Below the pieces are notes generated by a model. It was not told where the DNA came from, did not search any database, and was given only the letters and a program-made list of their open reading frames with translations. A program made the position numbers and the translations under genes. A DNA stretch of 64,000 nt, taken from IMG/VR virus record IMGVR_UViG_3300030117_007745, positions 48,655-112,654 of that record. One strand, 5' to 3'. This document shows positions 4,600 through 64,000 of this stretch, one piece after another (the first letter of the stretch is position 1; every line of letters starts with the position of its first letter). The DNA is from a virus.

Positions 4600-5982
4600 T
4601 TATGCAACCGCTTCTGATTTTGGAAGTGCTTTGTATTTTAATATCACTTCGTAGTCTTCCTTGCCATCACTACCTTTAACGCTTGCATAGGTACCATCCG
4701 CCAGATTCAAACGCAATTCTGCGGCAATTTTTCCTGTTGCTTTGCCGGATGGGCCCAAATTTCCCCCCGCTAATAATGCCCTGTCGCCCTCTATTTTATA
4801 AACCACATCGCCATGGCTGGCTGCCGGTTGTTTCTTATTGTTCTTTGGAAATCTTGGTTTTACTAGAATATCCCCAATGTTTGCCACAATTTTACCGGGC
4901 TGATCTCCTAATAATGAGTATGCTTTCCATGGACTACTTGCGGAGGTTTTTCCCTTTGTATCACCATTGGCACCAATATAAAAATAATGTGATTGCCTAC
5001 CAGAAAATTCTAAATCTCTAAAAATATAAGAAATAAATGCAGCGCTCCATGGTGCATCGTTTTTGTATTTCTTAGCTGGGTTTGCGTTTACGTTCTTCCA
5101 GTATTCTGCTATCCTGTCATACTCGGGCCGGCCGGGCTTATACTTTCCATTTCCCTCGTGCTTGCCATTCCAAAAATCTAATTCTTCTTGGGCTGCTTTG
5201 GTGACTTCTGTGTAATCTGTTCCCACTATAATCTTTCCTTCAGGGATTACTCTATCTTTATTAGCTAATCTCTCAGAGATTTTAGTTATAAAATTTTTAG
5301 CGTATCCGGGGGGAGGCGCTGTTCCAGTGTACTCTGAGCCGTCTCCTTCTTCCACTTCTTCTTCGCCGCCGGGGGCTGTCTCCTCCGGCGGTACAGTTTC
5401 TTCTTTTTTAAATGCCTCGGTAGATAAAATAGTTTCTCTTGCGGGAAGCTGGGGTGTTCTGCTATCAACGATATCAATATAGATTCCACCATTCATCGTT
5501 TCTTTATTCTGAAAGTCAACCCACACCAATTGCCCCCTAGATGGCACACTGACTTCAGCTGTTTGCGCTGTGAACAAAGGATATTGATTTATGATGTCAT
5601 GATCGGGACTAGAAGTAGAATCATTTGGTAAGTCTTGAGGTATTGGCAAGCATGCATGAATTTCAGGTACTCTGACTCTAATTTGCACGAGGGCCGGCCC
5701 ATCTGATGCTATATCGCCATGGATAATTGAATTTGTTGTCGCATGCCAACTAGTTGGGTCCATTGCAGCACCTTGATTTGTATACCCCTCAACTCTTAAA
5801 ACTATTCCAACCATCGGGCCCGGGTTTGCTAGGTCCTGTGTTCCAAGTGTATCTTTGGCAGTTTTCATCATCGTGCTAAAAAAACTGACTTCATCAGTAT
5901 CATAACTTTTTTTATGCTGACTATCAAAAGACGGGTTTAGGACTCCGTACCCTGCGTCAAGCATTTTATATCTACTAACCAT
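4600..5982 (-). CDS. Baseplate spike with OB-fold and DUF2272 wall-degrading domain
   Basis: Residues about 50-190 resemble the OB-fold of T4 gp5-type spikes (VRVPEIHACLPIP, VSVPSRGQLVWVDF). A Glu/Pro-rich linker at about 195-225 (EEEVEEGDGSEY) leads to a C-terminal region with the DUF2272/NlpC-like signature (IAEYWKN, then PWSAAFISYIFRD and later SHGDVVYKIEG), a predicted peptidoglycan hydrolase. This arrangement would let the spike open the cell wall during injection, like the lysozyme domain of T4 gp5. I chose the ATG at 5982, six bases inside an upstream TTG, because AAGGGGG stands at proper distance. It overlaps the preceding small gene by eight bases. Confidence 0.7.
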   Translation of the reverse strand: MVSRYKMLDAGYGVLNPSFDSQHKKSYDTDEVSFFSTMMKTAKDTLGTQDLANPGPMVGIVLRVEGYTNQGAAMDPTSWHATTNSIIHGDIASDGPALVQIRVRVPEIHACLPIPQDLPNDSTSSPDHDIINQYPLFTAQTAEVSVPSRGQLVWVDFQNKETMNGGIYIDIVDSRTPQLPARETILSTEAFKKEETVPPEETAPGGEEEVEEGDGSEYTGTAPPPGYAKNFITKISERLANKDRVIPEGKIIVGTDYTEVTKAAQEELDFWNGKHEGNGKYKPGRPEYDRIAEYWKNVNANPAKKYKNDAPWSAAFISYIFRDLEFSGRQSHYFYIGANGDTKGKTSASSPWKAYSLLGDQPGKIVANIGDILVKPRFPKNNKKQPAASHGDVVYKIEGDRALLAGGNLGPSGKATGKIAAELRLNLADGTYASVKGSDGKEDYEVILKYKALPKSEAVA

Positions 5983-6265
5983 CGCCAACCCCCTTTATAA
6001 GATCAAATAGTTCATTTTTATCTTGATCCGTCAGTCCCTGTTCTGCTCCGGCTTTCTTTTGTAGCAATGCACTAATCTTTACTAATTGCTCATTTGATCT
6101 TTGCAAAGTTTCAACGTATTTTGCTGCTATAGTGCCGACAGATCCCTTTTTGTCATCGTCTTTTTTCATATACTCCATCAACTCCATTAATAAAGTTGTG
6201 GTGATTGCTCTATCGCTACGTATGTTTTTAATTGCTTCGTCTATGTATGCTTCCAAATCTTTCAT
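5975..6265 (-). CDS. Small helical phage protein of unknown function
   Basis: 96 residues, predicted largely helical and charged (KKDDDKKGSVGTIAAKYVETLQ). No family recognised. It heads the baseplate pair and overlaps the next gene by eight bases, so it may be a small tail or chaperone component. There is no Shine-Dalgarno sequence; an ACTATTTA motif at 6274-6281 stands just before the start. Confidence 0.55.
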   Translation of the reverse strand: MKDLEAYIDEAIKNIRSDRAITTTLLMELMEYMKKDDDKKGSVGTIAAKYVETLQRSNEQLVKISALLQKKAGAEQGLTDQDKNELFDLIKGVGDG

Positions 6266-43082: not shown

Positions 43083-43407
43083 GGGGGTGTACAGGTTTCG
43101 ACTGGGTAGTGAAACTAATGTGTGCAAGGCAGAGGGCAGCGAAGGTCTCTGTAAAAACGCTGAAATTAATAAGTGCAAATACTGACACTTACTCTGAATA
43201 CGCACTAGCTGCGTAATCGGGGGTAGCCATACCTTCTTAACCAAAATGGCATATGGTTTCTTATTTCCTAAAAATGAGTGGTGCGAAAGAAGGCTTGTGG
43301 AAAATAAATTGTCTGTGTTGTTTTCCAGTATTTTACAGACTAACCTTGTGAACGACTCATTAGCAGAGTTATTTAGGACGGGGGTTCGATTCCCCCCACC
43401 TCCACCA
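43083..43407 (+). ncRNA. ssrA: tmRNA
   Basis: 325 bases. The 5' end GGGGGTG pairs with CACCTCC at the 3' end, followed by A and an encoded CCA. The 5' TACAGGTTTCGACTGG element and the 3' GGTTCGATTCC T-arm are canonical. The tag frame (43175-43216) is GCA AAT ACT GAC ACT TAC TCT GAA TAC GCA CTA GCT GCG TAA, giving ANTDTYSEYALAA. It rescues stalled ribosomes and marks proteins for ClpXP/ClpAP. Confidence 0.94.
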
Positions 43408-43438: not shown

Positions 43439-44575
43439 ATGAGCAATATACACAAAAATTGGAAAGAATTTATTATAAATGAGGCTGGTTTAAATAAAAT
43501 TAGGCAAGATATGTCTGATTATGATACAGCCTTTATTACAGCATTTCGTGGCGATATAAATGACAAAACTATGTGCGTTTATACACCTCCTTCAGAAGAA
43601 GAACTATCCGAAAGAGATAAAATGGGAAAAAGAGGCAAGAGCAACAAAAGAAACAATAAAGAACTCTCAGCTTTTCTTCTTAGTCAAGGATACGGTATCA
43701 AGAATGTTCAAGGTTCTTATATTGAGAATTTTGGATCTATTGACCCAGAAAAGATCCCCAGAGAAGTTAAAGAAGCAAGTTTCTTTGTTACTAACTTAAA
43801 AAATGACCCTGAATTTGCGGAACAAATAATAAATCTTGGAAAAAGATTTTGTCAGGATTCGGTCATTGTTGTTCCAAAGGGAGAAGAAGGATACATTTAT
43901 GGAACAAACAAAAGTAAATACCCCGGACTAGACCAAAAAGAAACTGTTGGTAAATTTATGGGCGGCGAAACTGGAGAATTTATGTCTCGTATAGGTGGCC
44001 GGCCCTTTGTTATGAAGGAAGATGAAGAAACGCAGACATATGAGGATTTTCCCGGAAAACAGAGGCAAGCCATAAAAATTATGGCCAATAGAACAGATAG
44101 AGAAATAAACGAAATGCACATGGTGTATAATATAAGTGAAGCAGATTTATCAGCCTATGATAATAGCGGAAAGACCACTCTATATCATTACGCACCAGTT
44201 GATTCTGAAGATATAAAAGTTGATCCTAGTATGTTTGGAAAGCAATCTTATTCTAGAAGAGAAAAAGAAAGGTCCACATATCCTAGATCTTTCTTTTATG
44301 TAAATTTAGATCAAGCCGAGAGTCAAGTAAAACAGGGCAGTACTCTATATTCCCTTAACATTCCAACCAATAAGTTGTATAGTATAAAAAGTGATCCAGA
44401 TGGGCTGGTAAAATCTATAAGGCATCCCACGTATGGTTTTAGAAATGATATCGAATGGACTGAACTTTTTGAAACAATACATGAAAATTACCTTGGCGCT
44501 TATTATTCTACCCCCTCTATGGACCTTGTGGTTCTGTTTGAGCCAATTACAGCGAGCAAGATGGAGAAAGAATGA
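43439..44575 (+). CDS. Putative head-cargo protein with T4-CTS-like N-terminus
   Basis: 378 residues. The opening NWKEFIINEAGL resembles the T4 internal-protein leader and has an I-N-E site. The middle has an unknown domain (SAFLLSQGYGIKNVQGSYIENFG, SFFVTNLKNDPEFAEQIINLGKRF). The C-terminal 130 residues (TTLYHYAPVDSEDIKVDP, SRREKERSTYPRSFFYVNL, LYSLNIPTNKLYSI) faintly recall ADP-ribosyltransferase-like folds, but no catalytic triad can be stated. No ribosome site; ACTATTTA precedes it. Confidence 0.5.
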   Translation: MSNIHKNWKEFIINEAGLNKIRQDMSDYDTAFITAFRGDINDKTMCVYTPPSEEELSERDKMGKRGKSNKRNNKELSAFLLSQGYGIKNVQGSYIENFGSIDPEKIPREVKEASFFVTNLKNDPEFAEQIINLGKRFCQDSVIVVPKGEEGYIYGTNKSKYPGLDQKETVGKFMGGETGEFMSRIGGRPFVMKEDEETQTYEDFPGKQRQAIKIMANRTDREINEMHMVYNISEADLSAYDNSGKTTLYHYAPVDSEDIKVDPSMFGKQSYSRREKERSTYPRSFFYVNLDQAESQVKQGSTLYSLNIPTNKLYSIKSDPDGLVKSIRHPTYGFRNDIEWTELFETIHENYLGAYYSTPSMDLVVLFEPITASKMEKE

Positions 44576-51131: not shown

Positions 51132-52127
51132 TTAAATTCTATCTTTATTTCCGGAAAAGTAGACGTTGGTGACTGGCGAAGAAAGTGAGATGTGGGAGGT
51201 GAGATATCTTTTCACTTGGTCTTCTTCTTCAAACTTTATAAGTTGATTGCCATTGTAGAATTTCCATTGGCCGACTTCCCTTAAAACATCCATCTTATTA
51301 AAAACAAGATCTGTTACACCATTCATGCGAACTGCTTTTAAGAGATTATCAAGATCCATCCAATTACATTGTCTTTTTCTGCCAGTTGTAGCGCCAAATT
51401 CTTCTCCGATTAGTTGCAGAGCATTAAAGACATCACCGTCTGGTTGGAAACGCTTTGCACCGACATAAGTCTCATAAATCTTAGCAACTCCCCACACTTT
51501 GCGAATAGCCTGTGGGGGTACTCCGTTTAAAAGAGCGGCAGCAGTTGTGCAATGAGAAGAGGTTACATAAGGATAATCTCCATGATCAATATCCAATCCA
51601 AAGCCCTGAGCGCCTTCAAAAAGAATTTCTACATTTGGTTTTGAATATAATTCCTCATACATATCAACAAGATAAGGCTTTAAGCAAGGCATGTCTTCTG
51701 CTCTAAATCCGCTTCTATTGTATTTATCGCGATAGGCCGGCCCATTTCCGCGTTTAGTGGTGCCAATTTTTGAGTCTTTACCATCTTCTTCTTTATGCGA
51801 TTTAGTAATTACATGGGCATTTTTTGCAATCGAAACTAAAGTAGATGCTGGAATACCTGCGTCTTCTAGTTCTTCTATTTCTTTAAAGAATTGATCTGGG
51901 TCTACAACACAGCCCGGTCCAATAATTGATTCAATTCCATAGAAAACTCCGGCCGGGATGTGGTGAGTTACAAATTTTTTACCTTCGTGATAGATGGTAT
52001 GGCCGGCATTGCAACCTCCATTAAATCTAATGACATGTGTGTAATTTCCCTTTGAACATAGGTGGTGGGTAATCTTACCCTTGGCTTCGTCTCCGTGCTG
52101 AAGACCAAGGACAACATCTGCGATCAT
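51132..52127 (-). CDS. purA: Short PurA-family adenylosuccinate synthetase
   Basis: 331 residues against about 430 for bacterial PurA. Retains the catalytic GDE (VVLGLQHGDEAKGKI with Asp), SKIGTTKRGNGPAYRDKYNR, YPYVTSSHCTTAAALLNGVPP and the GTP-binding TDLVFNKMDV. IMP or dGMP may be the acceptor: the diaminopurine enzyme PurZ is also short, but classic PurZ is reported to lack this Asp. A clear promoter lies upstream. RBS GAGAGG. Confidence 0.85.
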   Translation of the reverse strand: MIADVVLGLQHGDEAKGKITHHLCSKGNYTHVIRFNGGCNAGHTIYHEGKKFVTHHIPAGVFYGIESIIGPGCVVDPDQFFKEIEELEDAGIPASTLVSIAKNAHVITKSHKEEDGKDSKIGTTKRGNGPAYRDKYNRSGFRAEDMPCLKPYLVDMYEELYSKPNVEILFEGAQGFGLDIDHGDYPYVTSSHCTTAAALLNGVPPQAIRKVWGVAKIYETYVGAKRFQPDGDVFNALQLIGEEFGATTGRKRQCNWMDLDNLLKAVRMNGVTDLVFNKMDVLREVGQWKFYNGNQLIKFEEEDQVKRYLTSHISLSSPVTNVYFSGNKDRI

Positions 52128-52189: not shown

Positions 52190-54364
52190 TTATTCACAAG
52201 CATTATCATCAATAATTTGCATTAAGTTTTCATATAATTGAGCAGGATTACTCACAAGCTCAAACCATTGTCCACCATATATGGTTAGCGGCTCAAATCC
52301 AGCTGGTGCACCCATGAAGTTAGCAGGCCCTTTGTGTGCCTGCAATGTAAAAGTATACACATTTAAATCAACACAGCTTGAGATAAGTTGTTGCAAGTCT
52401 AATTGAGATATACCTTCGTGATATAGAGAGGATAAAACGTTTAATTGTTCAAGCATTGAAAGATAGCTTTGTCCAGCCTCATCTGTAAAGACAATTACAA
52501 CATGTTGAGCATCCTCTCTCCAGTTAATTTCAAAATTTTGAGGAGCAGGATCAGAATAAACATTATATATTGTCCCAAAGTTTTCTAAAAAGCTAAGGTC
52601 TGATATGGGCCATGGCAAAGCAGAAGGAGGTGCAAGATTCCATAAAGAGAGATAAATTATGTCATATATCGGCTCAAGACTAACATTCCAATCAATAGTG
52701 ATGCCGGATAAAGAGCTTATGAAATCGCTAAATGGAGATAAATTAGATAATATTTTTACTACTTGATTATACCCCCAGCCCTGTTCCTTTGGTTCAACAA
52801 ATGGTCCCATTATCAAGCCCCACTGTATCACCTCTTCATCTTTGTAAAATGTAGCGAACTGATTCATGGCCACAAGAACAGCATCAATTTCATCTTGCAT
52901 GGAGGCTGAAGCGTCAATAATAAAAAGAATATCTGTGTCTTTTAGTTCTTTTCCATCATCTACAATACCATCACAATTATCGTCTTCTCCATTACATTCA
53001 TCTGTTTCATTGGGAATAATCTCTCCCATACAATAGTCATTTATAAAAGTATTCCCATCTTCATAGTAATTTCCCCAAGATCCTTTTTCGCATGTCATTT
53101 GGCCGGGCACACAAACGCCAACATACAAGGTTTCAGGATCTCCCGTATAACAACCTTTGAAAAGATCTTCATCTATGGACTGGTTACAGTTGTCATCATG
53201 ATTATTGCAAATTTCATCTACAATAAGACCTTTGAATTTATCGCAATTTTCTGGAACTGGATTTTGATAGGAGCACATAGCAAAGCATTCTGTCATAAAA
53301 ATTTGTTCACAGTCCTCATCAAAACACTCACAAGTTTTATATCCCTGACCGCAAATCAGGGGGGATTCATAACAGGGGAATAGTGCACCTACCATTTGCT
53401 CTGTGCAGAGACACTCCAAGTCCTCATCTACACTTCCATCGCAATCATCATCTAGTCCATTACAGATCTCCATAAATGGAACCTGCGCTGTGCATCCAAT
53501 CCAAGACCCCGCAGCGCAAAATTCAACTCCAGTTTCACAATCTGTTTCACAAAGCTGTTCTAGCTCTTCGTCCGTTTTTCCATCACAATCATTATCAAAG
53601 CCATCGCAGACTTCCTCCGGCACATCCCCGCAGGTTCCACAAGCATTAGTCTGGCCTTCATCAATTAAGCCATCGCAATCATTATCTTTGTAATCGCAAA
53701 TTTCTTCTTGAGGCTCCTCCCCAAAACAAATTTCTTCCCCATCGACACATACTAATTCACCAGCACCACACTCATTTTCGCACTCTTGTATTGGTAAATT
53801 ATCTATTTCTCCGTCGCAATCATCATCTTTCCCATTGCACACTTCTGGCTCACATATTATGCAATCTGTATACTTCCATACACCTTTGTCACACCACTTT
53901 TCTTGAGACCCGTATGCATTACCCCCTGTTTCAACAGGAACTGAACACATAACCACCTCTGCTTCTGTTATAGAAGGGTCACATTCGAATTTTTGTTCGC
54001 AAGGGCCTTTATAAACAACCTCTTCAGGATTTTTACAAGTATCTGTTATTAATTGAAATTCCCATATTTCATTCAAAAATAAGGAAGGAGGGCAGAAAAA
54101 ATACTCTATTTTGTAGCAATCTTGTTGATATTGTTTTTCTAATTGAAAAAGAGTATTAATATTGTCCTTTTCTAATTCACGAGGAGAATATTCTTGATTG
54201 GTTACAATATCATTATCTAAATCATATTTTGGCTCTTCTTCAATTTCTAAATGACCGGGCCAAGGATATGGATTTTCATATATATCCGAGCATCCCATGA
54301 AATTTACCATTACAATAATGGCCATAATGATGAAGAATATTGCTGTTATGAAATGTTTAACCAT
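52190..54364 (-). CDS. Lipoprotein with six MopE-type Cys/Asp motifs and a VWA domain
   Basis: 724 residues. Signal IIMAIIVMVNFMGC with probable lipid Cys25. Cys-rich middle with six C-N-G-x-D-D-D-C-D-G-x-x-D-E motifs (first at about residue 176: CNGKDDDCDGEID; others CDYKDNDCDG, CDGFDNDCDG, CNGLDDDCDG, CNNHDDNCNQ, CNGEDDNCDG), each a putative Ca or Cu site. A VWA domain starts near residue 475 with the MIDAS IDASASM. Such proteins are abundant in Myxococcota/Bradymonadia. Likely a surface metal-binding adhesin. No ribosome site. Confidence 0.75.
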   Translation of the reverse strand: MVKHFITAIFFIIMAIIVMVNFMGCSDIYENPYPWPGHLEIEEEPKYDLDNDIVTNQEYSPRELEKDNINTLFQLEKQYQQDCYKIEYFFCPPSLFLNEIWEFQLITDTCKNPEEVVYKGPCEQKFECDPSITEAEVVMCSVPVETGGNAYGSQEKWCDKGVWKYTDCIICEPEVCNGKDDDCDGEIDNLPIQECENECGAGELVCVDGEEICFGEEPQEEICDYKDNDCDGLIDEGQTNACGTCGDVPEEVCDGFDNDCDGKTDEELEQLCETDCETGVEFCAAGSWIGCTAQVPFMEICNGLDDDCDGSVDEDLECLCTEQMVGALFPCYESPLICGQGYKTCECFDEDCEQIFMTECFAMCSYQNPVPENCDKFKGLIVDEICNNHDDNCNQSIDEDLFKGCYTGDPETLYVGVCVPGQMTCEKGSWGNYYEDGNTFINDYCMGEIIPNETDECNGEDDNCDGIVDDGKELKDTDILFIIDASASMQDEIDAVLVAMNQFATFYKDEEVIQWGLIMGPFVEPKEQGWGYNQVVKILSNLSPFSDFISSLSGITIDWNVSLEPIYDIIYLSLWNLAPPSALPWPISDLSFLENFGTIYNVYSDPAPQNFEINWREDAQHVVIVFTDEAGQSYLSMLEQLNVLSSLYHEGISQLDLQQLISSCVDLNVYTFTLQAHKGPANFMGAPAGFEPLTIYGGQWFELVSNPAQLYENLMQIIDDNACE

Positions 54365-54759: not shown

Positions 54760-55560
54760 TTACCACTTCCTGCAAGACCAATACCTTGCCTTTGTTTTGG
54801 GACCCGGATTATCACAGTTGTGCCTAGCCCTGAATGATTTGCGTCTTGCTGGGTTTGATTTTTTGATTCTCATATTTGGGTCACCAAAATTAACTTTCTT
54901 AACATTGCCTGTTTTTGGGTCTTTTACAAAAACTTTAAACTTTTTTACGTCACCACGCATTGGCTTGTTAAGTTTCACTTTTCTGCCTCTATATTCTGCC
55001 TCAACAACAACATCGTCCCAAAACTCAAGCACAAAGTCAACAACATTGCCATCATCATAAGTTGCATCACTAGGATGAATATAATTGTATTCAATTTCTT
55101 CTATTTGTTCTTTTTTTTGTAGATTGGAGCCTCTGCGTTTGTAGCCTTTGCATTGCGCTGGGGTAGGTCTACATCTGGGATACTTCGATCTCTTTTCTCC
55201 TTTTTGTCTTCCGCAGGATTTACATTTCTTTTTTCCGGTTTTTTTGTCTTTTCGGCAAGTATTGCAATCAACCCATCCTCCTTTTTTACCGGGGGCTCCT
55301 TGACGCTTAAACCATTTCCTTAAGCTCTCATCCTCCTCTAAGGCCTCCATCTGTTCATTTTCTGTGTTTTCATCCAGATTATCATCCGTTTCTTTGAGAC
55401 CTTTCCAGATCTTTCCAGCCCTGCAACGGACAACAGCGCCGGAAGCATAAGCCGAAGGCCAAGCATCATACTTGCGCTTTGCAATACGAGTGCAACGGTC
55501 ATCCTTCTCCTGTAATGAATCTACTTTTTGCCTAAGCCTTTCAACCAATCCTTTGATCAT
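54760..55560 (-). CDS. Basic Cys-rich phage protein
   Basis: 266 residues, strongly basic. AKRKYDAWPSAYASGAVVRCRAGKIWKG is followed by an acidic linker and SLRKWFKRQGAPGKKGGWVDC, a Cys-rich stretch with CNTC and CKSC (zinc-like), and SKYPRCRPTPAQC. The C-terminal end (ARRKSFRARHNCDNPGPKTKARYWSCRKW) is Cys/Arg-rich. Similar segments occur in marine phages and giant viruses (DUF5872/DUF6321-like, from memory). It probably binds nucleic acid or the capsid interior. Confidence 0.55.
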   Translation of the reverse strand: MIKGLVERLRQKVDSLQEKDDRCTRIAKRKYDAWPSAYASGAVVRCRAGKIWKGLKETDDNLDENTENEQMEALEEDESLRKWFKRQGAPGKKGGWVDCNTCRKDKKTGKKKCKSCGRQKGEKRSKYPRCRPTPAQCKGYKRRGSNLQKKEQIEEIEYNYIHPSDATYDDGNVVDFVLEFWDDVVVEAEYRGRKVKLNKPMRGDVKKFKVFVKDPKTGNVKKVNFGDPNMRIKKSNPARRKSFRARHNCDNPGPKTKARYWSCRKW

Positions 55561-56192
55561 TTTTTGTTGTCCTTGTCATCTAGATAAGCTGCTATTGCCA
55601 TTTTTTGTTTCTTTTTATCGCTCTTTCCCTTGAATTGAGGAGCTTTTGATTTACGAAAATCATCAACATAGGCACCTGCACCCATGCTAGGTTTTAGTTT
55701 TTCTTCCATTTCCTGCGATGGGACAAGAAGATAGTCTCTCATTTTATTTAACATTGAGGCAGATACAGCCATCTTGTTCGTCCACCAAGTTGGAAGATGG
55801 CCATCCATTTGCTCTAAAGCTTGAAGCATTTGGCCGGCATCTTCAATAATTGTCTTCATTGCTCGAACAGCAGAGGGAATATCTGTATGACCATCTTCGT
55901 TTAATTCAACTTCTGATTTCATAGCATCCTCTATCGCATCAGATACCATAGACATGATCACCTTTACAGCCTCTTCATGCATATCTTTAGGATCTTTAGA
56001 TACTGGCTCATCTGTATCAGCATACACTTGATCTTGCTTAACTGGGATCATCATCTCTTTATATGCCGCCTGAACAGCAGAATCAATGTTTTCCATTGTT
56101 TCCACATCAATACCTTCGTTTAGTTGCGAAGCTTTATAAGAATTAATTTCTTCTTGGATAATCTGTTGTAATCTTTGCTTTGTAATTTTCAT
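55557..56192 (-). CDS. Internal-head-type protein with MKITKQ leader
   Basis: 211 residues. Leader MKITKQRLQQIIQEEI carries an I-Q-E site. The rest is helical (AVKVIMSMVSDAIEDAMKSEVEL, ALEQMDGHLPTWWTNKMAVSAS) and ends GAGAYVDDFRKSKAPQFKGKSDKKKQK with a Lys-rich tail. ATGA overlap with the gene before it. Function unknown; a packaged protein is likely. Confidence 0.55.
   Translation of the reverse strand: MKITKQRLQQIIQEEINSYKASQLNEGIDVETMENIDSAVQAAYKEMMIPVKQDQVYADTDEPVSKDPKDMHEEAVKVIMSMVSDAIEDAMKSEVELNEDGHTDIPSAVRAMKTIIEDAGQMLQALEQMDGHLPTWWTNKMAVSASMLNKMRDYLLVPSQEMEEKLKPSMGAGAYVDDFRKSKAPQFKGKSDKKKQKMAIAAYLDDKDNKK
56145..56192 (-). repeat. MKITKQ leader module, copy 1
   Basis: First 16 codons; the most diverged of five DNA copies (ATGAAAATTACAAAGCAAAG start). 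Confidence 0.7.
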
Positions 56193-56416
56193 TCTGATTC
56201 GCTTTCCTTTAAAGCTTTATGAAGCGCTTGAATAACTCCACCATCTAAATGAGGATACTTACCCTCTAGAGCATCTTCGGCGGCCTCTTTCAACATTTCA
56301 GCTAACTTTCTTCTAACTTGCCCTTTAAGAAGCTTTCCATAGCCGGGAACCATAATAATATCATCATCGAGTTCCTCTTTAATTATTTCTTTTAATCTTT
56401 GTTTTGTAATTTTCAC
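56189..56416 (-). CDS. Small internal-head-type protein with MKITKQ leader
   Basis: 75 residues. Leader VKITKQRLKEIIKEEL, start codon GTG (RBS AAAGGTC). The rest is a short helical stretch (YGKLLKGQVRRKLAEMLKEAAEDAL). The I-K-E site would release a very short product. Overlaps the following gene by four bases. Confidence 0.5.
   Translation of the reverse strand: MKITKQRLKEIIKEELDDDIIMVPGYGKLLKGQVRRKLAEMLKEAAEDALEGKYPHLDGGVIQALHKALKESESE
56369..56416 (-). repeat. MKITKQ leader module, copy 2
   Basis: First 16 codons, GTG start, otherwise close to copies 3-5. Confidence 0.7.
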
Positions 56417-57331
56417 TTATCTTTGACCTTTTTTTCTTTTTTTAAGTTCTCTGTCTGTTCCTCCAAAGTCTGAAGGACTTGGATTGTCAAAGTTTACTTT
56501 TCCTGTTGATAGAGCTTTGTTGACTGTATCTTGCGACACACCAGAATCTCCAGCTTGAGGCATAACCTTTTCTCTTGAGAATTTACCTTTTGCTCTTTTG
56601 ATAACAGGAAGGTTACCTGCAATGTATTTTGCTGCTAATGTTTTGTCTGGCTTTTCTATTTTACCAGCTTGAGCAAGAAGTTGCAAAACTTCATCGCTTA
56701 CGTTTTTCATTACAAATTGTGCAACCTGTTCTGGGCTAGCTCCCATGAGGTTTTCTCCCTCGAATGGCTTAGTAACAACTTTATCGGCAGTTGCAGCGAT
56801 TGCAAACTGCATAGCCTTTAAGGCTTCTTCTTCATTTTCTAAGCCCGGGCCTTGTATATTATCTACTTTTACCTTTCCAGTCGGATTGACCATCATTATT
56901 TGAGACCACCTGTGGTGACCATCCAAAACATACTTTCCATTATAAACAAGAATTGGCACTGGGCCTGATTTTGAACTCATTACAATCGGAGACCCATTCA
57001 GTCCCAAGGCTGTTTTTGTAGCATCATACTTATTTTGAACTTGATCTGCTAGGCTATTTCCAAATCCAATTTCAGCTTGTGTAGCGATCAAATCAGATGC
57101 CTGAACCTCTCCTGAAGCCACGGATATCTTTTCGTCTTGAGGGCTTCCATCTGTTTGGCCAGCGGCTGCAACCTTGTCAAAGACAGGATCGTTAGCATAT
57201 TTTTTAAGAATAGCTACGTAAGTTTCTATGGGAGTTGATTCGTCTGCCAATGCGCGGAATACACCTTTATCAGCCTTTTCGTTTAAAACATCTGCGCTAA
57301 ATTTTCTCCAAGATTCCATCAATTCTTTCAT
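56417..57331 (-). CDS. ParB/Srx-like nuclease domain protein with cargo leader
   Basis: 304 residues from the ATG at 57331 (MKELMESWRKFSADVLNEKADK), chosen for AAAGGA upstream; a start at 57385 would overlap the previous gene. The leader resembles T4 internal proteins and contains L-N-E. Residues about 115-160 (PVPILVYNGKYVLDGHHRWSQIMMVNPTGKV) match ParB/sulfiredoxin-like DGHHR. C-terminus is Lys-rich. May be delivered into the host. Confidence 0.6.
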   Translation of the reverse strand: MKELMESWRKFSADVLNEKADKGVFRALADESTPIETYVAILKKYANDPVFDKVAAAGQTDGSPQDEKISVASGEVQASDLIATQAEIGFGNSLADQVQNKYDATKTALGLNGSPIVMSSKSGPVPILVYNGKYVLDGHHRWSQIMMVNPTGKVKVDNIQGPGLENEEEALKAMQFAIAATADKVVTKPFEGENLMGASPEQVAQFVMKNVSDEVLQLLAQAGKIEKPDKTLAAKYIAGNLPVIKRAKGKFSREKVMPQAGDSGVSQDTVNKALSTGKVNFDNPSPSDFGGTDRELKKRKKGQR

Positions 57332-57332
57332 T

Positions 57333-57575
57333 TTATTTTTTTTCCTTTCTTTTTGGATCATCGTCTCTTTTTGGAGTGTGACCATGTTCTTTTACGACAA
57401 TCTGCTCAATATCAGATTCGGTTAAGTTGCGAATAACAGTATCGCCAAATTTCATATCATAAACGCCAATCTCGCCGCTTTCGTTAAGAGAATGCCAAAG
57501 AACAGTTCCAATAGCATCTTCTTCGTTGATGCCATATCTTTCTTGTAAAGCTGAACTCAGCTTTCCTTCCTTCAT
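57333..57575 (-). CDS. Small uncharacterised protein
   Basis: 80 residues. KLSSALQERYGINEEDAIGTVLWHSLNESGEIGVYDMKFGDTVIRNLTESDIEQIVVKEHGH with a charged end. No family recognised. Two bases separate its end from the start of the following gene; it begins directly after the previous stop. Possibly a partner of the ParB-like protein. Confidence 0.45.
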   Translation of the reverse strand: MKEGKLSSALQERYGINEEDAIGTVLWHSLNESGEIGVYDMKFGDTVIRNLTESDIEQIVVKEHGHTPKRDDDPKRKEKK

Positions 57576-58268
57576 TCACTTGTGCTTGAGAGTGTCAAGT
57601 TCTTTTTCAAGTTTTTTCTTTCTAGCCTTTTCTGTTTTTGTAAGCTCTTCTGCTATTAAAGACTTAAGATCTCTTCTTGTGATTTTACCTTCTTCCATAC
57701 GAGTCATATAGTTGTAGTTATCGCCTTCACCAGACTGCCATTTATCAAAACCAGACTTCCTAGATGAGCCACGCTCTCCGCTATTCGCATGATCCCTAGC
57801 TTGTTGAGCCCTTCTACTTCTTCGGGCCCGTCTTTCATAGTCTGCTTCTCTTTCTGCTCGCTCCCTTGCTTCTCTCTCAGCCTTTTCAGCAGCTTCTTTG
57901 GCTTCTCTAGCTCCCATTTGTTCCGCATAATCAGCTACATTTTCTAGTTCACTTCTGTACATCCTTACCGTGCTGTCGGTAGCGCTCTGCTGATCTTTTG
58001 TTAAATCTTCATCAGCCAATGCGTCCATATATTCATTATAGTTCGCTTCCATTGCTTTGATTGCTGCTTCTAGCTCTGCGCCTGTTTTCATGTCAAATTG
58101 TGCTCTATACAACCTAGTATTTTCTTTCTCAAATTTATCTGTAAGAGGTTTCCACTTTTTGCTTCCAAAACCCAGCTTCGCTTTCAGCTTACCAAATAAG
58201 CCCTCGTTCTGCGAGTTTTCCAACTCTTCTTTAATTATTTCTTTCAATCTTTGTTTTGTGATTTTCAT
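57576..58268 (-). CDS. Coiled-coil internal-head-type protein with two leader-like segments
   Basis: 230 residues. Leader MKITKQRLKEIIKEEL, then helical, strongly Glu/Arg/Ala-rich (AKEAAEKAEREARERAERE) coiled coil. A second leader-like segment near residue 197 (GKITRRDLKSLIAEEL) has an I-A-E site. RBS CAGGAG. Likely a packaged or core protein. Confidence 0.55.
   Translation of the reverse strand: MKITKQRLKEIIKEELENSQNEGLFGKLKAKLGFGSKKWKPLTDKFEKENTRLYRAQFDMKTGAELEAAIKAMEANYNEYMDALADEDLTKDQQSATDSTVRMYRSELENVADYAEQMGAREAKEAAEKAEREARERAEREADYERRARRSRRAQQARDHANSGERGSSRKSGFDKWQSGEGDNYNYMTRMEEGKITRRDLKSLIAEELTKTEKARKKKLEKELDTLKHK
58221..58268 (-). repeat. MKITKQ leader module, copy 3
   Basis: First 16 codons, nearly identical DNA to copies 2, 4 and 5. 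Confidence 0.75.
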
Positions 58269-58319
58269 CTTAATGTCTCCTGTAACATTATAATTATTAA
58301 CTCGTTTTAGTTTAAGCCC

Positions 58320-58661
58320 TTAAACTTTAAATTGTTTCCAAGCATATTTTTCTCTGTATTCTAAATAGTGTGGATCTGCCTCAAATGAGTACGCTTCTCT
58401 TTCAAACCTGATTGATCTATAGGCGTCATCATAGTTTTTATATTTTATAAATCCATGAACAAAATCCCATAGATAAAGAAAAAGAAATCCAACGACAAAC
58501 AATTCAGCGTATTGAACAATGTGAATTGACTCGTGATTTATTAATCTAGCATCCCCTTCGCCTCTAATAAAAATAAATGGAAATAGAGTTATACCTCCCA
58601 CCTCCATAAACCAACTTAACATTTTTGGTATTCTACTGTTTTTTACAATAATTGGTTTCAT
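58320..58661 (-). CDS. Small membrane protein with HExxH-like motif
   Basis: 113 residues. NHESIHIVQYAEL (His43, Glu44, His47) followed by a hydrophobic helix (VVGFLFLYLWDFV), and an N-terminal hydrophobic segment. A small membrane zinc-peptidase-like protein is possible. RBS GAGG. Sits between two non-leader genes in the cargo block. Confidence 0.5.
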   Translation of the reverse strand: MKPIIVKNSRIPKMLSWFMEVGGITLFPFIFIRGEGDARLINHESIHIVQYAELFVVGFLFLYLWDFVHGFIKYKNYDDAYRSIRFEREAYSFEADPHYLEYREKYAWKQFKV

Positions 58662-59219
58662 TTAACAAATCCTCTTCCCTTTTAAAAGTTGTTGTAACAT
58701 GTTGCTCTTGCTAAAAAATATAAATGACGTTGCGATCTTATCTTCATCAATTCCTAGTCTTTCGGACCAAGTTTTAGAAGACTTATTTAAGCATAGGGCG
58801 ACGGGCTTAGTGATTAAATCACCTCCTTGGCTGCCTAACAAATGGTTCCAGAGATGGTATTCAAACTCAGTGACTCTGAAACGGTCGGCTATAAGCCCAT
58901 CATTGTTTTTAGAGGCCCACTCAATAGCTATTTTTAACAATAGGGGGCCCCACTCATTATCTGATTCTATAATTTTTGCTATGTAAGCACCCTCACATTC
59001 GCCTTCAAATTCACTTGGCTTTGATATTGTTACATATCCCCAAGGCTTATCTTCGCCTTTTTCTGTGGCAGTGCAAATAGCATCATTAACATAGCGAAAA
59101 GTTCTTCTTCCACCAGCACCCCTCTCTATGCGAACAGCGATATTGGAGGGTAAATCATCAAAAGATTTTACGTTTTTTAATACAATATTCTTGTATACTT
59201 TTTTCTTTTTTCTTGGCAA
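58662..59219 (-). CDS. Uncharacterised protein, GNAT-like middle
   Basis: 185 residues. WGYVTISKPSEFEGECEGAYIAKIIESDNEWGPLLLKIAIEWASKN resembles the acyltransferase-type loop of phage proteins; GLIADRFRVTEFEYHLWNHLL follows. Starts at TTG with AAGGA nine bases upstream. Function unknown, possible acetyltransferase-like fold. Confidence 0.45.
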   Translation of the reverse strand: MPRKKKKVYKNIVLKNVKSFDDLPSNIAVRIERGAGGRRTFRYVNDAICTATEKGEDKPWGYVTISKPSEFEGECEGAYIAKIIESDNEWGPLLLKIAIEWASKNNDGLIADRFRVTEFEYHLWNHLLGSQGGDLITKPVALCLNKSSKTWSERLGIDEDKIATSFIFFSKSNMLQQLLKGKRIC

Positions 59220-59223
59220 GCAT

Positions 59224-60033
59224 TTATTTCCTTAAAAACTCTTTCCAAGTCTTTACAGTCTCAGACAGTTTTATCCTGATTAAGCCATCAGATTGTCTAG
59301 ACATTAACTTGTCATAGGCCATATGCTTAAGGTTACTCAGTTTTTCCAAGTATCCGTTTCTTCTTAGGACTTTAAAAGCGATATTCTCTCCCGAAAACTC
59401 TCCTGCTCTGTCTAGTCCTGTCTTTCTAAACTTGCGTATTTTTTCTTTTAACTTATCAATATATTGGAGGGAATCTGTATATTTTTTATCTTTGTATATT
59501 TTGACTGCTCTATCGATTTGGTCCATGATTCCTTCTGCTTTTTTCGTAATATCATTCCAGTCAAAAGAAGGCTCAACCCTATTTGGTTCTGTAAGCCACT
59601 CATCATTCATCACAGAGTATACTCCGGTTGATGTGTGGGGTTCGTTATCATCTTGCACATAAACTTCAACTTCAAATCCATCAATACGAATGTCATGTAT
59701 TCTGTTCCAAAGAGATTTTTTAGCATTAAAATAGTCTTTAGCTAGATCTGGATCTGCTTCTACTTCTGTATAATCAACGATTAGATGAAGATCAACATCA
59801 GAATATGGAGACCAGTTATAATTTGCGAGAGACCCAGTAAAGGTAATATCTTTTAACTCTGCGTCAATTTCGAGACTGTCATAGAAATCTTTAGCAATCT
59901 CAATAAGACGCTTGCGAATAGACGGTCTCAACTTCTTGCCCAAAGGCCAAAAGTTAGGCTCAAGGGTTTCCTGCGTGTTGAAGGTTCCCCTGAGTTCATC
60001 ATCTATTTCGCTCATTATTTGTTTAATGTTCAT
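59224..60033 (-). CDS. Pol-beta-type nucleotidyltransferase
   Basis: 269 residues. ITFTGSLANYNWSPYSDVDLHLIVDYTE carries the G-S then D-x-D active-site motif of the nucleotidyltransferase superfamily. Second half is helical and ends VKTWKEFLRK, similar to the leader-type W-x-x-F motif but at the C-terminus. Could transfer a nucleotide to RNA, protein or small molecules; MNT-HEPN-like toxins and phage RNA-repair enzymes are options. Confidence 0.7.
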   Translation of the reverse strand: MNIKQIMSEIDDELRGTFNTQETLEPNFWPLGKKLRPSIRKRLIEIAKDFYDSLEIDAELKDITFTGSLANYNWSPYSDVDLHLIVDYTEVEADPDLAKDYFNAKKSLWNRIHDIRIDGFEVEVYVQDDNEPHTSTGVYSVMNDEWLTEPNRVEPSFDWNDITKKAEGIMDQIDRAVKIYKDKKYTDSLQYIDKLKEKIRKFRKTGLDRAGEFSGENIAFKVLRRNGYLEKLSNLKHMAYDKLMSRQSDGLIRIKLSETVKTWKEFLRK

Positions 60034-60460
60034 TTATTTTTTTACCCTTAGCATATACACGTTGACCATCTGGCCTATCAATATAGGCACCAGCGTGTGC
60101 TGGTTTTTTATCTTTTAGCGTCAAAGGCTCGTCTGGCGCTAAGGACTGTATAGCTTTTTCAATGGCTTTTGATGCCATTCCTACGAGCATATCTGGAATT
60201 TTAGGAGCACCGCCAATTGGCATAAGCTTGTTTTTCATTGGATCGGAAAAGTGTTTTAGATAAAAATAGAGACCTTGATTGCCTAAAGTAACTTTATAAA
60301 CTTTATATGATCTAGGAATCGGTCCTAAATCTAGCAAATCTGGATCCCCCGACATTGCCAATTCAACGTTGGCAATATCACCGAAATCAAATTTTTCATT
60401 GACTGTATTGTCCACTTCCTCTTTAATAATTTGTTTTAATCTTTGTTTTGTAATTTTCAT
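60023..60460 (-). CDS. Internal-head-type protein with MKITKQ leader
   Basis: 145 residues. Leader MKITKQRLKQIIKEEV, then a beta-rich middle (DLGPIPRSYKVYKVTLGNQGLYFYLKHF) and an unusual C-terminus KPAHAGAYIDRPDGQRVYAKGKK. No family known. It overlaps the membrane-protein gene by 38 bases. Confidence 0.5.
   Translation of the reverse strand: MKITKQRLKQIIKEEVDNTVNEKFDFGDIANVELAMSGDPDLLDLGPIPRSYKVYKVTLGNQGLYFYLKHFSDPMKNKLMPIGGAPKIPDMLVGMASKAIEKAIQSLAPDEPLTLKDKKPAHAGAYIDRPDGQRVYAKGKKINEH
60413..60460 (-). repeat. MKITKQ leader module, copy 4
   Basis: First 16 codons; shares the first 30 bases with copy 5. Confidence 0.75.
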
Positions 60461-61193
60461 TTTTTACTCCTGCGATAATTTTCCATCTATCGTATTGTTT
60501 TGACTCGGCAACCATGGCTAATTCTTCTTCTGGTTCTGCGCTCCCTTGGGCTTGTTCCTTCGCTTCTTCATTCAACCTTTTTAGCACTTCGTCCATAGCT
60601 TGATCAAGATCACGAGTTAGTCTTATGATATCAAGTTCGTTATTCTCTTCTGACTTGATCATTTCTTTCATTTCATCACCAATTGCTCGAACTTTTTCAT
60701 CGACAGAGATGCTGTGCAGAACTAGTCCTATAAAAGTATCTATCTCGTCTTCAGTCATTTCTGTCTTTTCTGCTAACTTAATCTGGAGGGTGTTGACGAA
60801 TTCTTGTACTTGTTCTCCGGGTGTCATATCTATTTTTGCAATTTCCTTATATTTTTCTGGAAAGGCTTTTTTCATAAACTTATCAAATATTTTTCCTAAT
60901 AATTTTCCTCTTTGCCTATACAGATAGATTGCTAAACCAGCCCCAACAAAAGGTGTCCAGAGCGGATAAGTGATTATTGCTGCGATTGAAATTGCGGTGG
61001 TGAAGGCACCGATTCCGAGGACAATGTGTTTTAGGTCTTTTCTTTCGTCGTCGCTAATTCCTTCTACGGAAAAGCGAACTTTTCCTTTTTCACTTGCGTC
61101 AGCGGTAGCTTGCAATTCATCTAAATTCTGCTTTTTCTCTGCTGCTATCTTCTCTGATGTTTCTAGGAACACCTGTAAATTGCTTTTTTTCAT
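60423..61193 (-). CDS. Membrane protein with cargo-type N-terminus
   Basis: 256 residues. Start MKKSNLQVFLETSEKI includes an F-L-E like site. A hydrophobic pair at about residues 57-90 (IVLGIGAFTTAISIAAIITYPLW, FVGAGLAIYLY) spans the membrane; the rest is helical and acidic (EKTEMTEDEIDTFIGLVL). May anchor packaged proteins or act after injection. Overlaps the next gene by 38 bases. Confidence 0.5.
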   Translation of the reverse strand: MKKSNLQVFLETSEKIAAEKKQNLDELQATADASEKGKVRFSVEGISDDERKDLKHIVLGIGAFTTAISIAAIITYPLWTPFVGAGLAIYLYRQRGKLLGKIFDKFMKKAFPEKYKEIAKIDMTPGEQVQEFVNTLQIKLAEKTEMTEDEIDTFIGLVLHSISVDEKVRAIGDEMKEMIKSEENNELDIIRLTRDLDQAMDEVLKRLNEEAKEQAQGSAEPEEELAMVAESKQYDRWKIIAGVKNENYKTKIKTNY

Positions 61194-61199
61194 TTTATT

Positions 61200-61571
61200 T
61201 TAATCCTTATTTTCCTCTTCTGGTTCGTCTTGAAACATGTCAACCGTAGAAATTTCTACAGAAACCCTAGGGGCAATTTGTCTAATGAAACCAACAATCG
61301 CCTTTTTAACATTATCTACTGACCCAAATTTACCTTCTTCGGTAGCAGCTATAAGAGCGTCATCGAGAAGTGACATAAACTCAACCACTTCATCTGGGCT
61401 ATTAATTAATTGAAAAAAATAATCCAAGCCCTTTTCAACGTCGAATGATGTATCTTCTCCTTTTTCTTTACTGGTTTTTAAGTTATAGGTAAACTTTTCC
61501 AATCCTTTCTTCTTAGAGGATTCAAATTCTTCCTTGATGATCTGTTTTAATCTTTGTTTTGTAATTTTCAT
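61200..61571 (-). CDS. Internal-head-type protein with MKITKQ leader
   Basis: 123 residues. Leader MKITKQRLKQIIKEEF with an I-K-E site. The rest is helical and acidic (GLDYFFQLINSPDEVVEFMSLLDDALI, MFQDEPEEENKD). No known family. ATGA overlap with the gene before it. Confidence 0.5.
   Translation of the reverse strand: MKITKQRLKQIIKEEFESSKKKGLEKFTYNLKTSKEKGEDTSFDVEKGLDYFFQLINSPDEVVEFMSLLDDALIAATEEGKFGSVDNVKKAIVGFIRQIAPRVSVEISTVDMFQDEPEEENKD
61524..61571 (-). repeat. MKITKQ leader module, copy 5
   Basis: First 16 codons, nearly identical to copy 4 over the first 30 bases. Confidence 0.75.
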
Positions 61572-64000
61572 TTTAGCTTGATCCTAATTCTTCTTTTTGG
61601 CCTCATCCCGCAATGCTTTTCTCTCAACCCTGACTTGGGTCTTTGGTCTCTCGCTCGCTTGGCAAACTCTGCGTCTTTTAGATCTGCAAATCCGGGGTTG
61701 GTCTCAAATTGTTTTGCTATAGGCACAATCTTACTTGATATCCACTCGCCAACAAAATCTGAGACCTCTTGCCAGTTATCATCTAACCATTTAAAACCAT
61801 TAATATAAGCGTAGTATACCTCTGGGTTTGATTTGCGGACGGCTCGCAGGTCCTTTAGTGGTATTGCATCAAAACCCATCGTTGCTACACCGTATGCTCC
61901 TTCAATCTTTCTATCGCCAATTTCTGATTCAAAAGAATCTTTGTGACTTTGCTTTATTGTATCTATCAAACGAAGTTCAGGTCTGAACCTAAAGTTAGGT
62001 CTAAAGAAATCAACACCCTGCTGCTTCATTATACTCCCATACTCTTCAGCACCCCTGCCTTGTTGAGTGCCCATCTCTGGCTTGTCCTCCAATCCGGGGA
62101 TTTCTATTTGCTTTCTCTTGTCCCTAGTTTTTTCAATAGGGGCTGCTAATTTATCTGTAATGTCTCTTAGGAGATCTCCACGGAGCGGTCTGGATCCAAA
62201 ACGAGTATCCAGCGCATCTTCAAGTTGCTTTACATAGCCATGCTGTCTATTAAAGATTTCTTTTTCCTCATCGGGTATGCTTATACCAACAGCCTGACCA
62301 TCGGGTAGGGCAGGGAAGAACTTTTGCATTTCCTTGAAGTTTCTCATCATATTTGGAATTTCAAAAACAGATGTGCCATAAAGATTTAACTTCCCTTGGT
62401 TAACATCGTATTTCATATACTTGAGGTTTGATAGCATTTCTTTTATGTTGCCTCTGCCTCCTGCTCCTTCATCCTCCAAAGCATTTCGTGGATCAATAGC
62501 AACCCCGTCATCAACAAGGTCGTTAAAGGTCTTTTCTATTGCTTCCTCAAAATGCTGATCGTATCTCTTCATCCTATCCAAGAACTGACGGAAGCCTTCA
62601 AGACCTTCTCTCGGAGATTCGTCATAATCAGGCGTCATACGCAAATAAAATTCATAATCACTACCATCCTGAACTTCATCAACATACATACCAGCAGAGT
62701 CAAATGCGCTTTGGATAAGATCTCTTACCATTTCTCTGTCAGAATACGCTCCATAAGCCTCTTCAAAGTCATCTGTGAGTTCTTTAGAGCCATCTACATT
62801 TTCCACTTCATAACGAAGTTGATCAAAGGGAGCGTCGTCTAGCTGAACACTTATGTTGCCTTCCCAATTCCACTCGTCGTCACCGTAATCATCGTAATAC
62901 ACACTAATATGTTCAAGGTCAGCGTCTTCAACCATTTGTCGGAGTTCTTCTGAACTAAAAGTGCCGGGAGGATCGTCTATTGTGCTTTGGTATGCTTCAT
63001 TAGCAATAAGACTCCAAGTATCCTGTGCTAACTCTATAAACTCCGAAGCGGCTTCTTCACCGTTATACAGCGTTGTATCACCAATTTTTGGAGGATCAAC
63101 TTCATAAGCCAAGTCTCCCTGACCTTGAAGATACTTTATAATATCTTCATAAAGCTTCACATCTTCCTCGTTCATTTCTTCTGGGTCGTCACTTCCTAAA
63201 AAGTCTTCTAATGAGTCGCCGTCCAATAAAGCACCAGCAATCATATCAACAAACTCGTCTTTTAGTGGATAATCAGGATTCTGCTTGATCGCAGGAGCAA
63301 TAAGATTATAAAACAAGATTCTTATAAGTTCATAATCATCAGTATATCCCTCATCTTCCACATCGAAGAACTCTTCAAACTCGCCGTTCTTATCATAGAC
63401 AAGAGCAATCTTTCTGTATTTGGAGTCATCGTTCAAATTTTTGTTGAGGATAAAATAGAAAGCCTTTCCTTGTCTTGTATAGGAATCATAATAATTTTGT
63501 GATCGGGTTGCTGAAATGCACCACTTGGTTTTCTTACCAAAAAAGCATGAGGCTTCTTGTGTTTCAGGGCGAATAATAAAAAAGTCTTCGTCGTCCTGTA
63601 GAATAGAAGCGCCACCAAGGGCCACTTCCTTTTCTTTTCTTTTTTCTTCAGAACTAGATAAACCAATGTCATCGATAAAGTTCTCAAGTTGATCAAGAGT
63701 TCTGAACTGATTAATATCGTTTGGGTATGGAGCTTTGCCTTCTTTCTTTCTATTCTTATTTAGTTGGCTGATTCTTTGCTTGGCTTTGTGAAAGTCAGTA
63801 ACAATAGGAACAATATCAAATATGCGTTCGTTTGCCAAGCCCGGAACATCATAGACACCAGCACCAGAGTCTTTCATTGCTCTTGTCATCCACATCAAGT
63901 AAGCGTTCTTGCCTGATGGGTCACTAGCCGAAAGTTGCTTGATGATTGGCTCGGCTATTTCAGGAAACTTTTTCATAGTATCCTGTAATCTGCCCTCTAT
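61568..64000 (-). CDS. Large internal-head-type protein, partial (N-terminus beyond window)
   Basis: At least 810 residues. No stop is found upstream of the ATG at 63976, and the frame runs to the window edge (IEGRLQDT before the ATG), so the true start lies outside. CFFGKKTKWCISATRSQNYY and GKAFYFILNKN are a pattern I recall from large-phage proteins of unknown function. Middle is acidic; the end is basic (REKHCGMRPKRRIRIKLK). Joined by ATGA to the next MKITKQ gene. Confidence 0.6.
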   Translation of the reverse strand: MEGRLQDTMKKFPEIAEPIIKQLSASDPSGKNAYLMWMTRAMKDSGAGVYDVPGLANERIFDIVPIVTDFHKAKQRISQLNKNRKKEGKAPYPNDINQFRTLDQLENFIDDIGLSSSEEKRKEKEVALGGASILQDDEDFFIIRPETQEASCFFGKKTKWCISATRSQNYYDSYTRQGKAFYFILNKNLNDDSKYRKIALVYDKNGEFEEFFDVEDEGYTDDYELIRILFYNLIAPAIKQNPDYPLKDEFVDMIAGALLDGDSLEDFLGSDDPEEMNEEDVKLYEDIIKYLQGQGDLAYEVDPPKIGDTTLYNGEEAASEFIELAQDTWSLIANEAYQSTIDDPPGTFSSEELRQMVEDADLEHISVYYDDYGDDEWNWEGNISVQLDDAPFDQLRYEVENVDGSKELTDDFEEAYGAYSDREMVRDLIQSAFDSAGMYVDEVQDGSDYEFYLRMTPDYDESPREGLEGFRQFLDRMKRYDQHFEEAIEKTFNDLVDDGVAIDPRNALEDEGAGGRGNIKEMLSNLKYMKYDVNQGKLNLYGTSVFEIPNMMRNFKEMQKFFPALPDGQAVGISIPDEEKEIFNRQHGYVKQLEDALDTRFGSRPLRGDLLRDITDKLAAPIEKTRDKRKQIEIPGLEDKPEMGTQQGRGAEEYGSIMKQQGVDFFRPNFRFRPELRLIDTIKQSHKDSFESEIGDRKIEGAYGVATMGFDAIPLKDLRAVRKSNPEVYYAYINGFKWLDDNWQEVSDFVGEWISSKIVPIAKQFETNPGFADLKDAEFAKRARDQRPKSGLREKHCGMRPKRRIRIKLK

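Follow-up and report, generated by a model that had tools for sequence, protein, structure and literature searches.

A short N-terminal leader on unrelated genes of an uncultured T4-like phage: a probable capsid-targeting and cleavage tag

In bacteriophage T4, IPII and IPIII are internal proteins with a short N-terminal capsid-targeting sequence (CTS); like the propeptides of IPI and Alt, it is processed by the prohead protease gp21. To our knowledge, T4 cargo with leader tags of this type comprises only three internal proteins and Alt. IPII and IPIII in the T4 record both begin MKTYQEFIAE, then A, ahead of different bodies, and in the IPIII leader residues 4 and 7 are critical for targeting and residues 8 and 10 for processing (PMC9026906). 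A second described system is that of SPN3US and phiKZ, in which the prohead protease removes a propeptide from inner-head (ejection) proteins after a glutamate; in SPN3US, the first 15 residues of gp53 and gp54 are identical (PMC5694885). Here we describe an N-terminal leader, termed leader A, that is shared by five genes with unrelated bodies in the right part (the window; 64,000 nucleotides, positions 48,655–112,654) of the 112,654-bp uncultured virus record IMGVR_UViG_3300030117_007745. This leader is most probably a capsid-targeting and cleavage tag of the T4 type, in greatly expanded form.

The likeness to the T4 CTS lies in the identical short leader with an I-x-E end on different bodies, and in the gp21-type protease and gp23-type capsid protein seen in relatives of this record. 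The leader differs from the T4 CTS in sequence and in length (14 residues compared with 10), and a second [L/V]-x-E is often present. Moreover, more than one leader family occurs side by side, in arrays of up to 25 or more copies, compared with 3–4 in T4. Removal of a propeptide after glutamate, predicted for the present leaders, would be shared with SPN3US and phiKZ. However, propeptides in those phages are mostly longer than 100 residues and are cut at A-x-E or S-x-E (PMC5694885), whereas the leaders here span 14–22 residues and end in [I/L]-x-E.

Leader genes of the window and the conservation boundary

Leader A, MKITKQRL[KQ][QE]II[KQ]EE, is 14–15 residues long and variable at residues 9, 10 and 13 among the five window genes. 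All five lie on the minus strand, so that positions 55557, 56189, 57576, 60023 and 61200 are their 3′ ends; their starts are at 56192, 56416 (GTG), 58268, 60460 and 61571.

61200–61571, minus strand: leader-A gene of 123 amino acids (aa) with an acidic body; leader at 61527–61571, MKITKQRLKQIIKE, then E
60023–60460, minus strand: leader-A gene of 145 aa; leader at 60416–60460, MKITKQRLKQIIKE, then E
57576–58268, minus strand: leader-A gene of 230 aa with a charged, coiled-coil-like body; leader at 58224–58268, MKITKQRLKEIIKE, then E
57642–57689, minus strand: internal near-copy of the leader, KITRRDLKSLIAEEL, near the C-terminus of gene 57576, seen in the sequence and by local BLAST (residues 195–209 against other leaders)
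56189–56416, minus strand: leader-A gene of 75 aa with a GTG start; leader at 56372–56416, (M/V)KITKQRLKEIIKE, then E
55557–56192, minus strand: leader-A gene of 211 aa; leader at 56148–56192, MKITKQRLQQIIQE, then E; its homologs in loci L036 and L100 likewise carry leader A

An earlier note, made from the letters of this DNA, had described five genes with nearly the same first 16 codons, the first 26 bases being identical in most copies. The shared start is confirmed, although the shared leader comprises 14–15 residues, and identity of the first 26 bases is true of three copies, with the GTG start set aside. A sixth leader-A copy, MKIAKTKLKQIIKEE, and three copies of a second family, leader B (MKQLLENWRQYLNE, MKKILNEWKEYLNE and MKLILENWRKFLMSE), lie at 7.4–9.3 kb of the record, transcriptionally upstream of the terminase and portal genes. 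With the sixth copy included, the leader DNA is identical pairwise at 36–43 of 48 bases, and the following 48 bases at 11–18, which is the chance level. The five bodies without their leaders have no significant mutual similarity (best E 0.014), as the note had proposed; full-length comparisons reach E 2e-8 because of the leader. A degenerate leader pattern matches four of the five window genes (the GTG-start gene escapes it) and none in 100 shuffles, excluding a chance origin of the shared leader. The internal near-copy in gene 57576 is possibly a second cleavage site, at a C-terminal tail.

The conservation of the leader has a sharp end. In a leader-A sample fixed only through residue 11 (172 matches), I12 is kept in 85% and E14 in 85–89%, and most exceptions resemble chance hits. 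K13 and residue 15 are less conserved, and past residue 16 conservation is gone, with the sole exception of a weak second [V/L]-x-E at residues 19–22. Leader B, of the MKxLLENWRxYLNE type (137 proteins), is marked by W8, [FY]11, L12 and E14. Part of this conservation was imposed by the search pattern, but the drop after E14 (4.3 bits, then 1.1 and then 0.4, with no conservation beyond) was not.

Both families share with the T4 sequence a common skeleton, hydrophobic-x-x-hydrophobic-[I/L]-x-E. They end in [I/L]-x-E, the motif recognised by gp21, and their hydrophobic residues occupy the positions critical in IPIII, whose spacing equals that of W8/L8, Y/F/I11, L/I12 and E14 in leaders A and B. 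In T4, a leader with Asp at position 10 retains targeting but escapes the cut. When N-termini were scanned generically for hydrophobic-x-x-hydrophobic-[ILM]-x-E within residues 2–20, the motif was found in 9.9% of the genes of this record, 20% in leader loci, 22% in phage immuto and 6% in T4, compared with 1.8% in random viral loci; the internal background rate of the skeleton is 1.4–2.3%.

Among the matches listed from the viral collection, leader A is widespread in uncultured T4-like myoviruses, with 15–20 copies per record in records of 240–290 kb. In the fetched loci, the bodies of 238 leader-A proteins of at least 90 aa form 194 unrelated clusters, and those of 155 leader-B proteins form 96. 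Two control T4-like records are without leader A, which therefore appears to be a marker of a divergent T4-like clade. From cellular genomes the leader is nearly absent: across all of them the pattern occurs in only 11 stretches, every one on a metagenome-assembled genome. On the 305,838-bp contig NHDW01000006.1 (L449) there are 25 strict copies, of which about 19 lie within 9 kb (about 184–193 kb). This contig is phage-like and binned as Methylococcaceae, and its array of about 19 leader genes has unrelated bodies. The reversed pattern gave zero matches in every search. The leader peptide found no tblastn match in named phages, possibly owing to low-complexity filtering, and gene 55557 found chance matches only in phages. 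A text search of the literature did not find the peptide, and no paper in the collection searched describes the leader.

Head-assembly genes in leader phages

Of the 29 leader-A records of at least 50 kb, 24 encode the gp21-family prohead protease (PF03420), as do 16 of the 17 of at least 100 kb, compared with 2 of 19 and 2 of 4 random control records of those sizes. The protease is also found in two of the seven cellular genomes holding leader matches. A gp23-type capsid protein was recovered in 29 of the 30 records searched, a count that includes two non-leader controls. Nearly all capsid proteins recovered from relatives have an [L/I]-x-E near residue 60, for example KELLRE, then AS; the equivalent site in T4 gp23, FLTE, then A, ends a 65-residue propeptide.

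Gene order in the relatives also ties the leaders to head assembly. The relatives keep one arrangement, in which terminase and portal are followed by two conserved genes, a small gene and the leader genes, and these in turn by protease, scaffold and capsid. In L432–L435 the leader genes come after the portal gene and immediately before the protease gene, and in L436 they follow the capsid gene. Among leaders with a mapped protease, 43 of 70 lie within 15 kb of it, compared with 19 expected under a uniform distribution. The gene order of the record matches that of L432–L436 up to its break inside the small gene.

By large terminase, the nearest named relatives are two T4-like isolates, Flavobacterium phage immuto and Microcystis phage Mel-JY01, which have a T4-type head operon including the prohead protease and share the order terminase, portal, protease, scaffold and capsid. 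Phage immuto has its own leaders, of MKKSQLRQIIKEA and MENFDLKKFLVENKL types, with sequences unlike those of this record. No annotation or proteomics report was found that treats the leader proteins of immuto or Mel-JY01 as packaged proteins. A third family in immuto (L126), MENFDLKKFLVENKLTxNSxxL, occurs in three genes and fits the hydrophobic-x-x-hydrophobic-[I/L]-x-E skeleton. Separately, the motif R[WM]xxLAGIxK ends the scaffold and some neighbouring head proteins (L126:25626-26867, L127:23870-24970, L432:14712-15959 and L436:8607-10346). R[WM]xxLAGI is mostly C-terminal, with one N-terminal case in the immuto gp83 leader, which ends IITE, and may possibly be a docking motif common to core and cargo.

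Alternatively, the leader could be a peptide that binds another partner, such as the membrane or a protein of the host or else a compartment of the phage. It would then never be removed and would mark early host-takeover proteins. The cargo types would suit such a role, and the leader is predicted, at low confidence, as a helix apart from the body. However, its hydrophobic moment is unexceptional, conservation falls past an invariant [I/L]-x-E in two leader families, the leader genes lie within the head operon, and the skeleton is held in common with the T4 sequence, all of which make a binding peptide unlikely.

Several observations weigh against a cleaved capsid-targeting tag. The protease association is confounded by phage size, and the size-matched comparison is weak because two of the four random controls of at least 100 kb also have the protease. 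Five of the 29 leader-A records of at least 50 kb, possibly fragments, have no detected protease. The record itself ends before the site of the relatives' protease and capsid genes; its own copies lie outside the sequenced part, since the record breaks off inside the small gene. In family A the P1′ position is mostly occupied by E (74%), whereas capsid sites are followed by A or S, and E15-L16 of leader A is likewise conserved; the true cut may therefore lie further downstream than E14. Finally, the majority of bodies are without known function.

Leader exchange, putative cargo and possible leader copying

The same body is found with leader A in one phage and leader B in another (L025 compared with L108, L244 and L017; L052 compared with L257), and some bodies, including NUDIX, deoxyribonucleotidase and window gene 58662, also occur leaderless. 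Gene 58662, a leaderless homolog of leader-A and leader-B proteins, shows that a given body may or may not bear the leader. Such exchange bears on whether the five window genes are an old paralogous family whose bodies have diverged past recognition, the N-terminus alone being kept. Their tandem arrangement and a short similarity that at times reaches about residue 25–40 would fit common descent. The occurrence of one and the same body with leader A, leader B or none, and of bodies from different known families (S-adenosylmethionine (SAM) lyase, NUDIX, ParB, sigma), contradicts such descent for many bodies and makes it very unlikely. Further window genes have homologs with leaders or resemble leader genes at their N-termini.

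61568–64000, minus strand: large gene cut off by the record end, which is also the right edge of the window; its homolog in L176 carries leader B in 18 residues absent here
59224–60033, minus strand: nucleotidyltransferase-like protein whose short N-terminus, MNIKQIMSE, then I, fits the skeleton; homologs carry leader-B variants (L176, MKLLLESFRQYLEE)
58662–59219, minus strand: leaderless homolog of both leader-B and leader-A proteins in other phages (L208, L237, L189, L436)
56417–57331, minus strand: weakly ParB-like protein (Pfam ParBc_2, E 0.033, below cutoff) with a degenerate type-B leader, MKELMESWRKFSADVLNE, and a downstream start at 57331
54760–55560, minus strand: Cys-rich protein; homologs have leader B (L221), leader A (L280) or, in phage immuto, an IIKEILSE-type N-terminus
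43439–44575, plus strand: S-adenosylmethionine lyase (Pfam PF23780, E 1.7e-7, above cutoff) with a leader-B-like N-terminus, MSNIHKNWKEFIINE, then A
5975–6265, minus strand: 96-aa gene with a T4-like N-terminus, MKDLEAYIDE, then A, from a motif scan

The suggestion in the earlier note that the right-edge gene may carry a leader outside the window is borne out by its homolog: the first residue of the window gene aligns to homolog residue 19, and homolog residues 1–18 are MKLLFENWRQYLNEEQLL. The homologs of gene 56417 in L190 and L205 have canonical leaders (MKLIMENWRRYLNE and MKLIMENWRKFLSE). In alignment, the SAM lyase of gene 43439 is fused to a second domain; in L243 and L251 this domain is a leader-B-like gene of its own.

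Recognised leader-A cargo includes sigma-70 region 2, GNAT and pentapeptide repeats; recognised leader-B cargo includes SAM lyase, NUDIX, ParB, polynucleotide kinase/zeta-like ATPase, 5′-nucleotidase and M23 peptidase. One leader-B protein has a weak ART-PolyVal (ADP-ribosyltransferase) match. The recognisable cargo plausibly represents injected host-takeover or anti-restriction functions. The SAM lyase of phage T3 acts against restriction. To a similar end, T4 packages the protein IPI, which inhibits a type IV restriction enzyme (PMC9026906). An ADP-ribosyltransferase identity for the LYHYA domain found no support in Pfam. Structural comparisons do not form part of the main evidence. AlphaFold models were too weak (mean predicted local distance difference test score 60 for the SAM-lyase fusion and 48 for gene 55557), Foldseek gave no match at E ≤ 0.001 (top row a phage SAM lyase, E 0.008), and sequence searches against solved structures found nothing.

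At the DNA level, leader bases 4–27 of the window genes have an identity of 22.4 of 24, compared with 18.5 expected from codon usage and 19.5 from 5′-end codon usage (P=0.0003); bases 28–45 have no excess. Leader codon identity within a locus is 0.61–0.69, compared with a codon-usage expectation of 0.41–0.46 and 0.48–0.55 between loci. These values lend modest support to some copying of leaders between genes, with 5′ codon preferences contributing, and to the same extent to the recruitment through recombination at the DNA repeat that the earlier note had envisaged. T4-type late promoters (TATAAATA) are not enriched. A role of the shared sequence chiefly as a nucleic-acid element (a translation-initiation signal or recombination hot spot), with the peptide incidental, would agree with these excesses but is scarcely credible, as the amino acids are kept across loci despite codon variation, family B has quite different DNA with the same peptide skeleton, and the repeat begins in frame with the start codon.

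Elsewhere in the window, a full transfer-messenger RNA gene lies at 43083–43407 (plus strand; Rfam E 1e-55; tag ANTDTYSEYALAA), and the record also has three tRNAs. About 24 kb at 7732–31988 (minus strand) consists of genes that, judged from sequence, resemble those of sugar-nucleotide and glycan synthesis (epimerases, aminotransferases, glycosyltransferases, kinases), a size unusual in phage. A predicted lipoprotein of 724 aa at 52190–54364 (minus strand) has CNGxDDDCDG-type repeats, MopE-like by eye, and a VWA-like domain. An adenylosuccinate-synthetase-like gene (PurA/PurZ-like by eye) at 51132–52127 (minus strand) adjoins the cargo region.

A putative virion-delivery system

The earlier note had proposed a head-targeting or cleavage tag. 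Its proposal is supported by independent comparisons: the conservation boundary at E14, the T4 skeleton, and the gp21-type protease and gp23 genes in leader phages, and further the protease-adjacent leader genes, the leader swaps on homologous bodies and the cargo types; from these we infer the packaging, cleavage and ejection of leader proteins. In the proposed mechanism, the N-terminal leader helix with its hydrophobic-x-x-hydrophobic-[I/L]-x-E skeleton would dock the protein into the prohead core at head assembly. The gp21-type protease would then cut after E14; in many copies the second [L/V]-x-E near residues 19–22 might be cut as well, or in place of E14. The freed body would stay inside the capsid and be ejected with the DNA. 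The tag would be a detachable module on dozens of unrelated bodies, of which many are probably enzymes for host takeover or anti-restriction.

In a wider sense, uncultured T4-like phages may well run a modular virion-delivery system, with dozens of exchangeable effectors per genome, a few interchangeable leader families, one protease, and leaders copied by recombination. If so, the leader alone would predict the injected proteome of such phages. Should the logic of T4 hold, the 14-residue motif would mark hundreds of unrelated, mostly unannotated proteins as injected virion cargo, and the cargo injected at the start of infection would include likely anti-restriction (SAM lyase) and host-takeover enzymes. 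Such a system would provide a new source of phage effectors and new head-packaging tags, and would allow the proteins that accompany phage DNA to be read from sequence.

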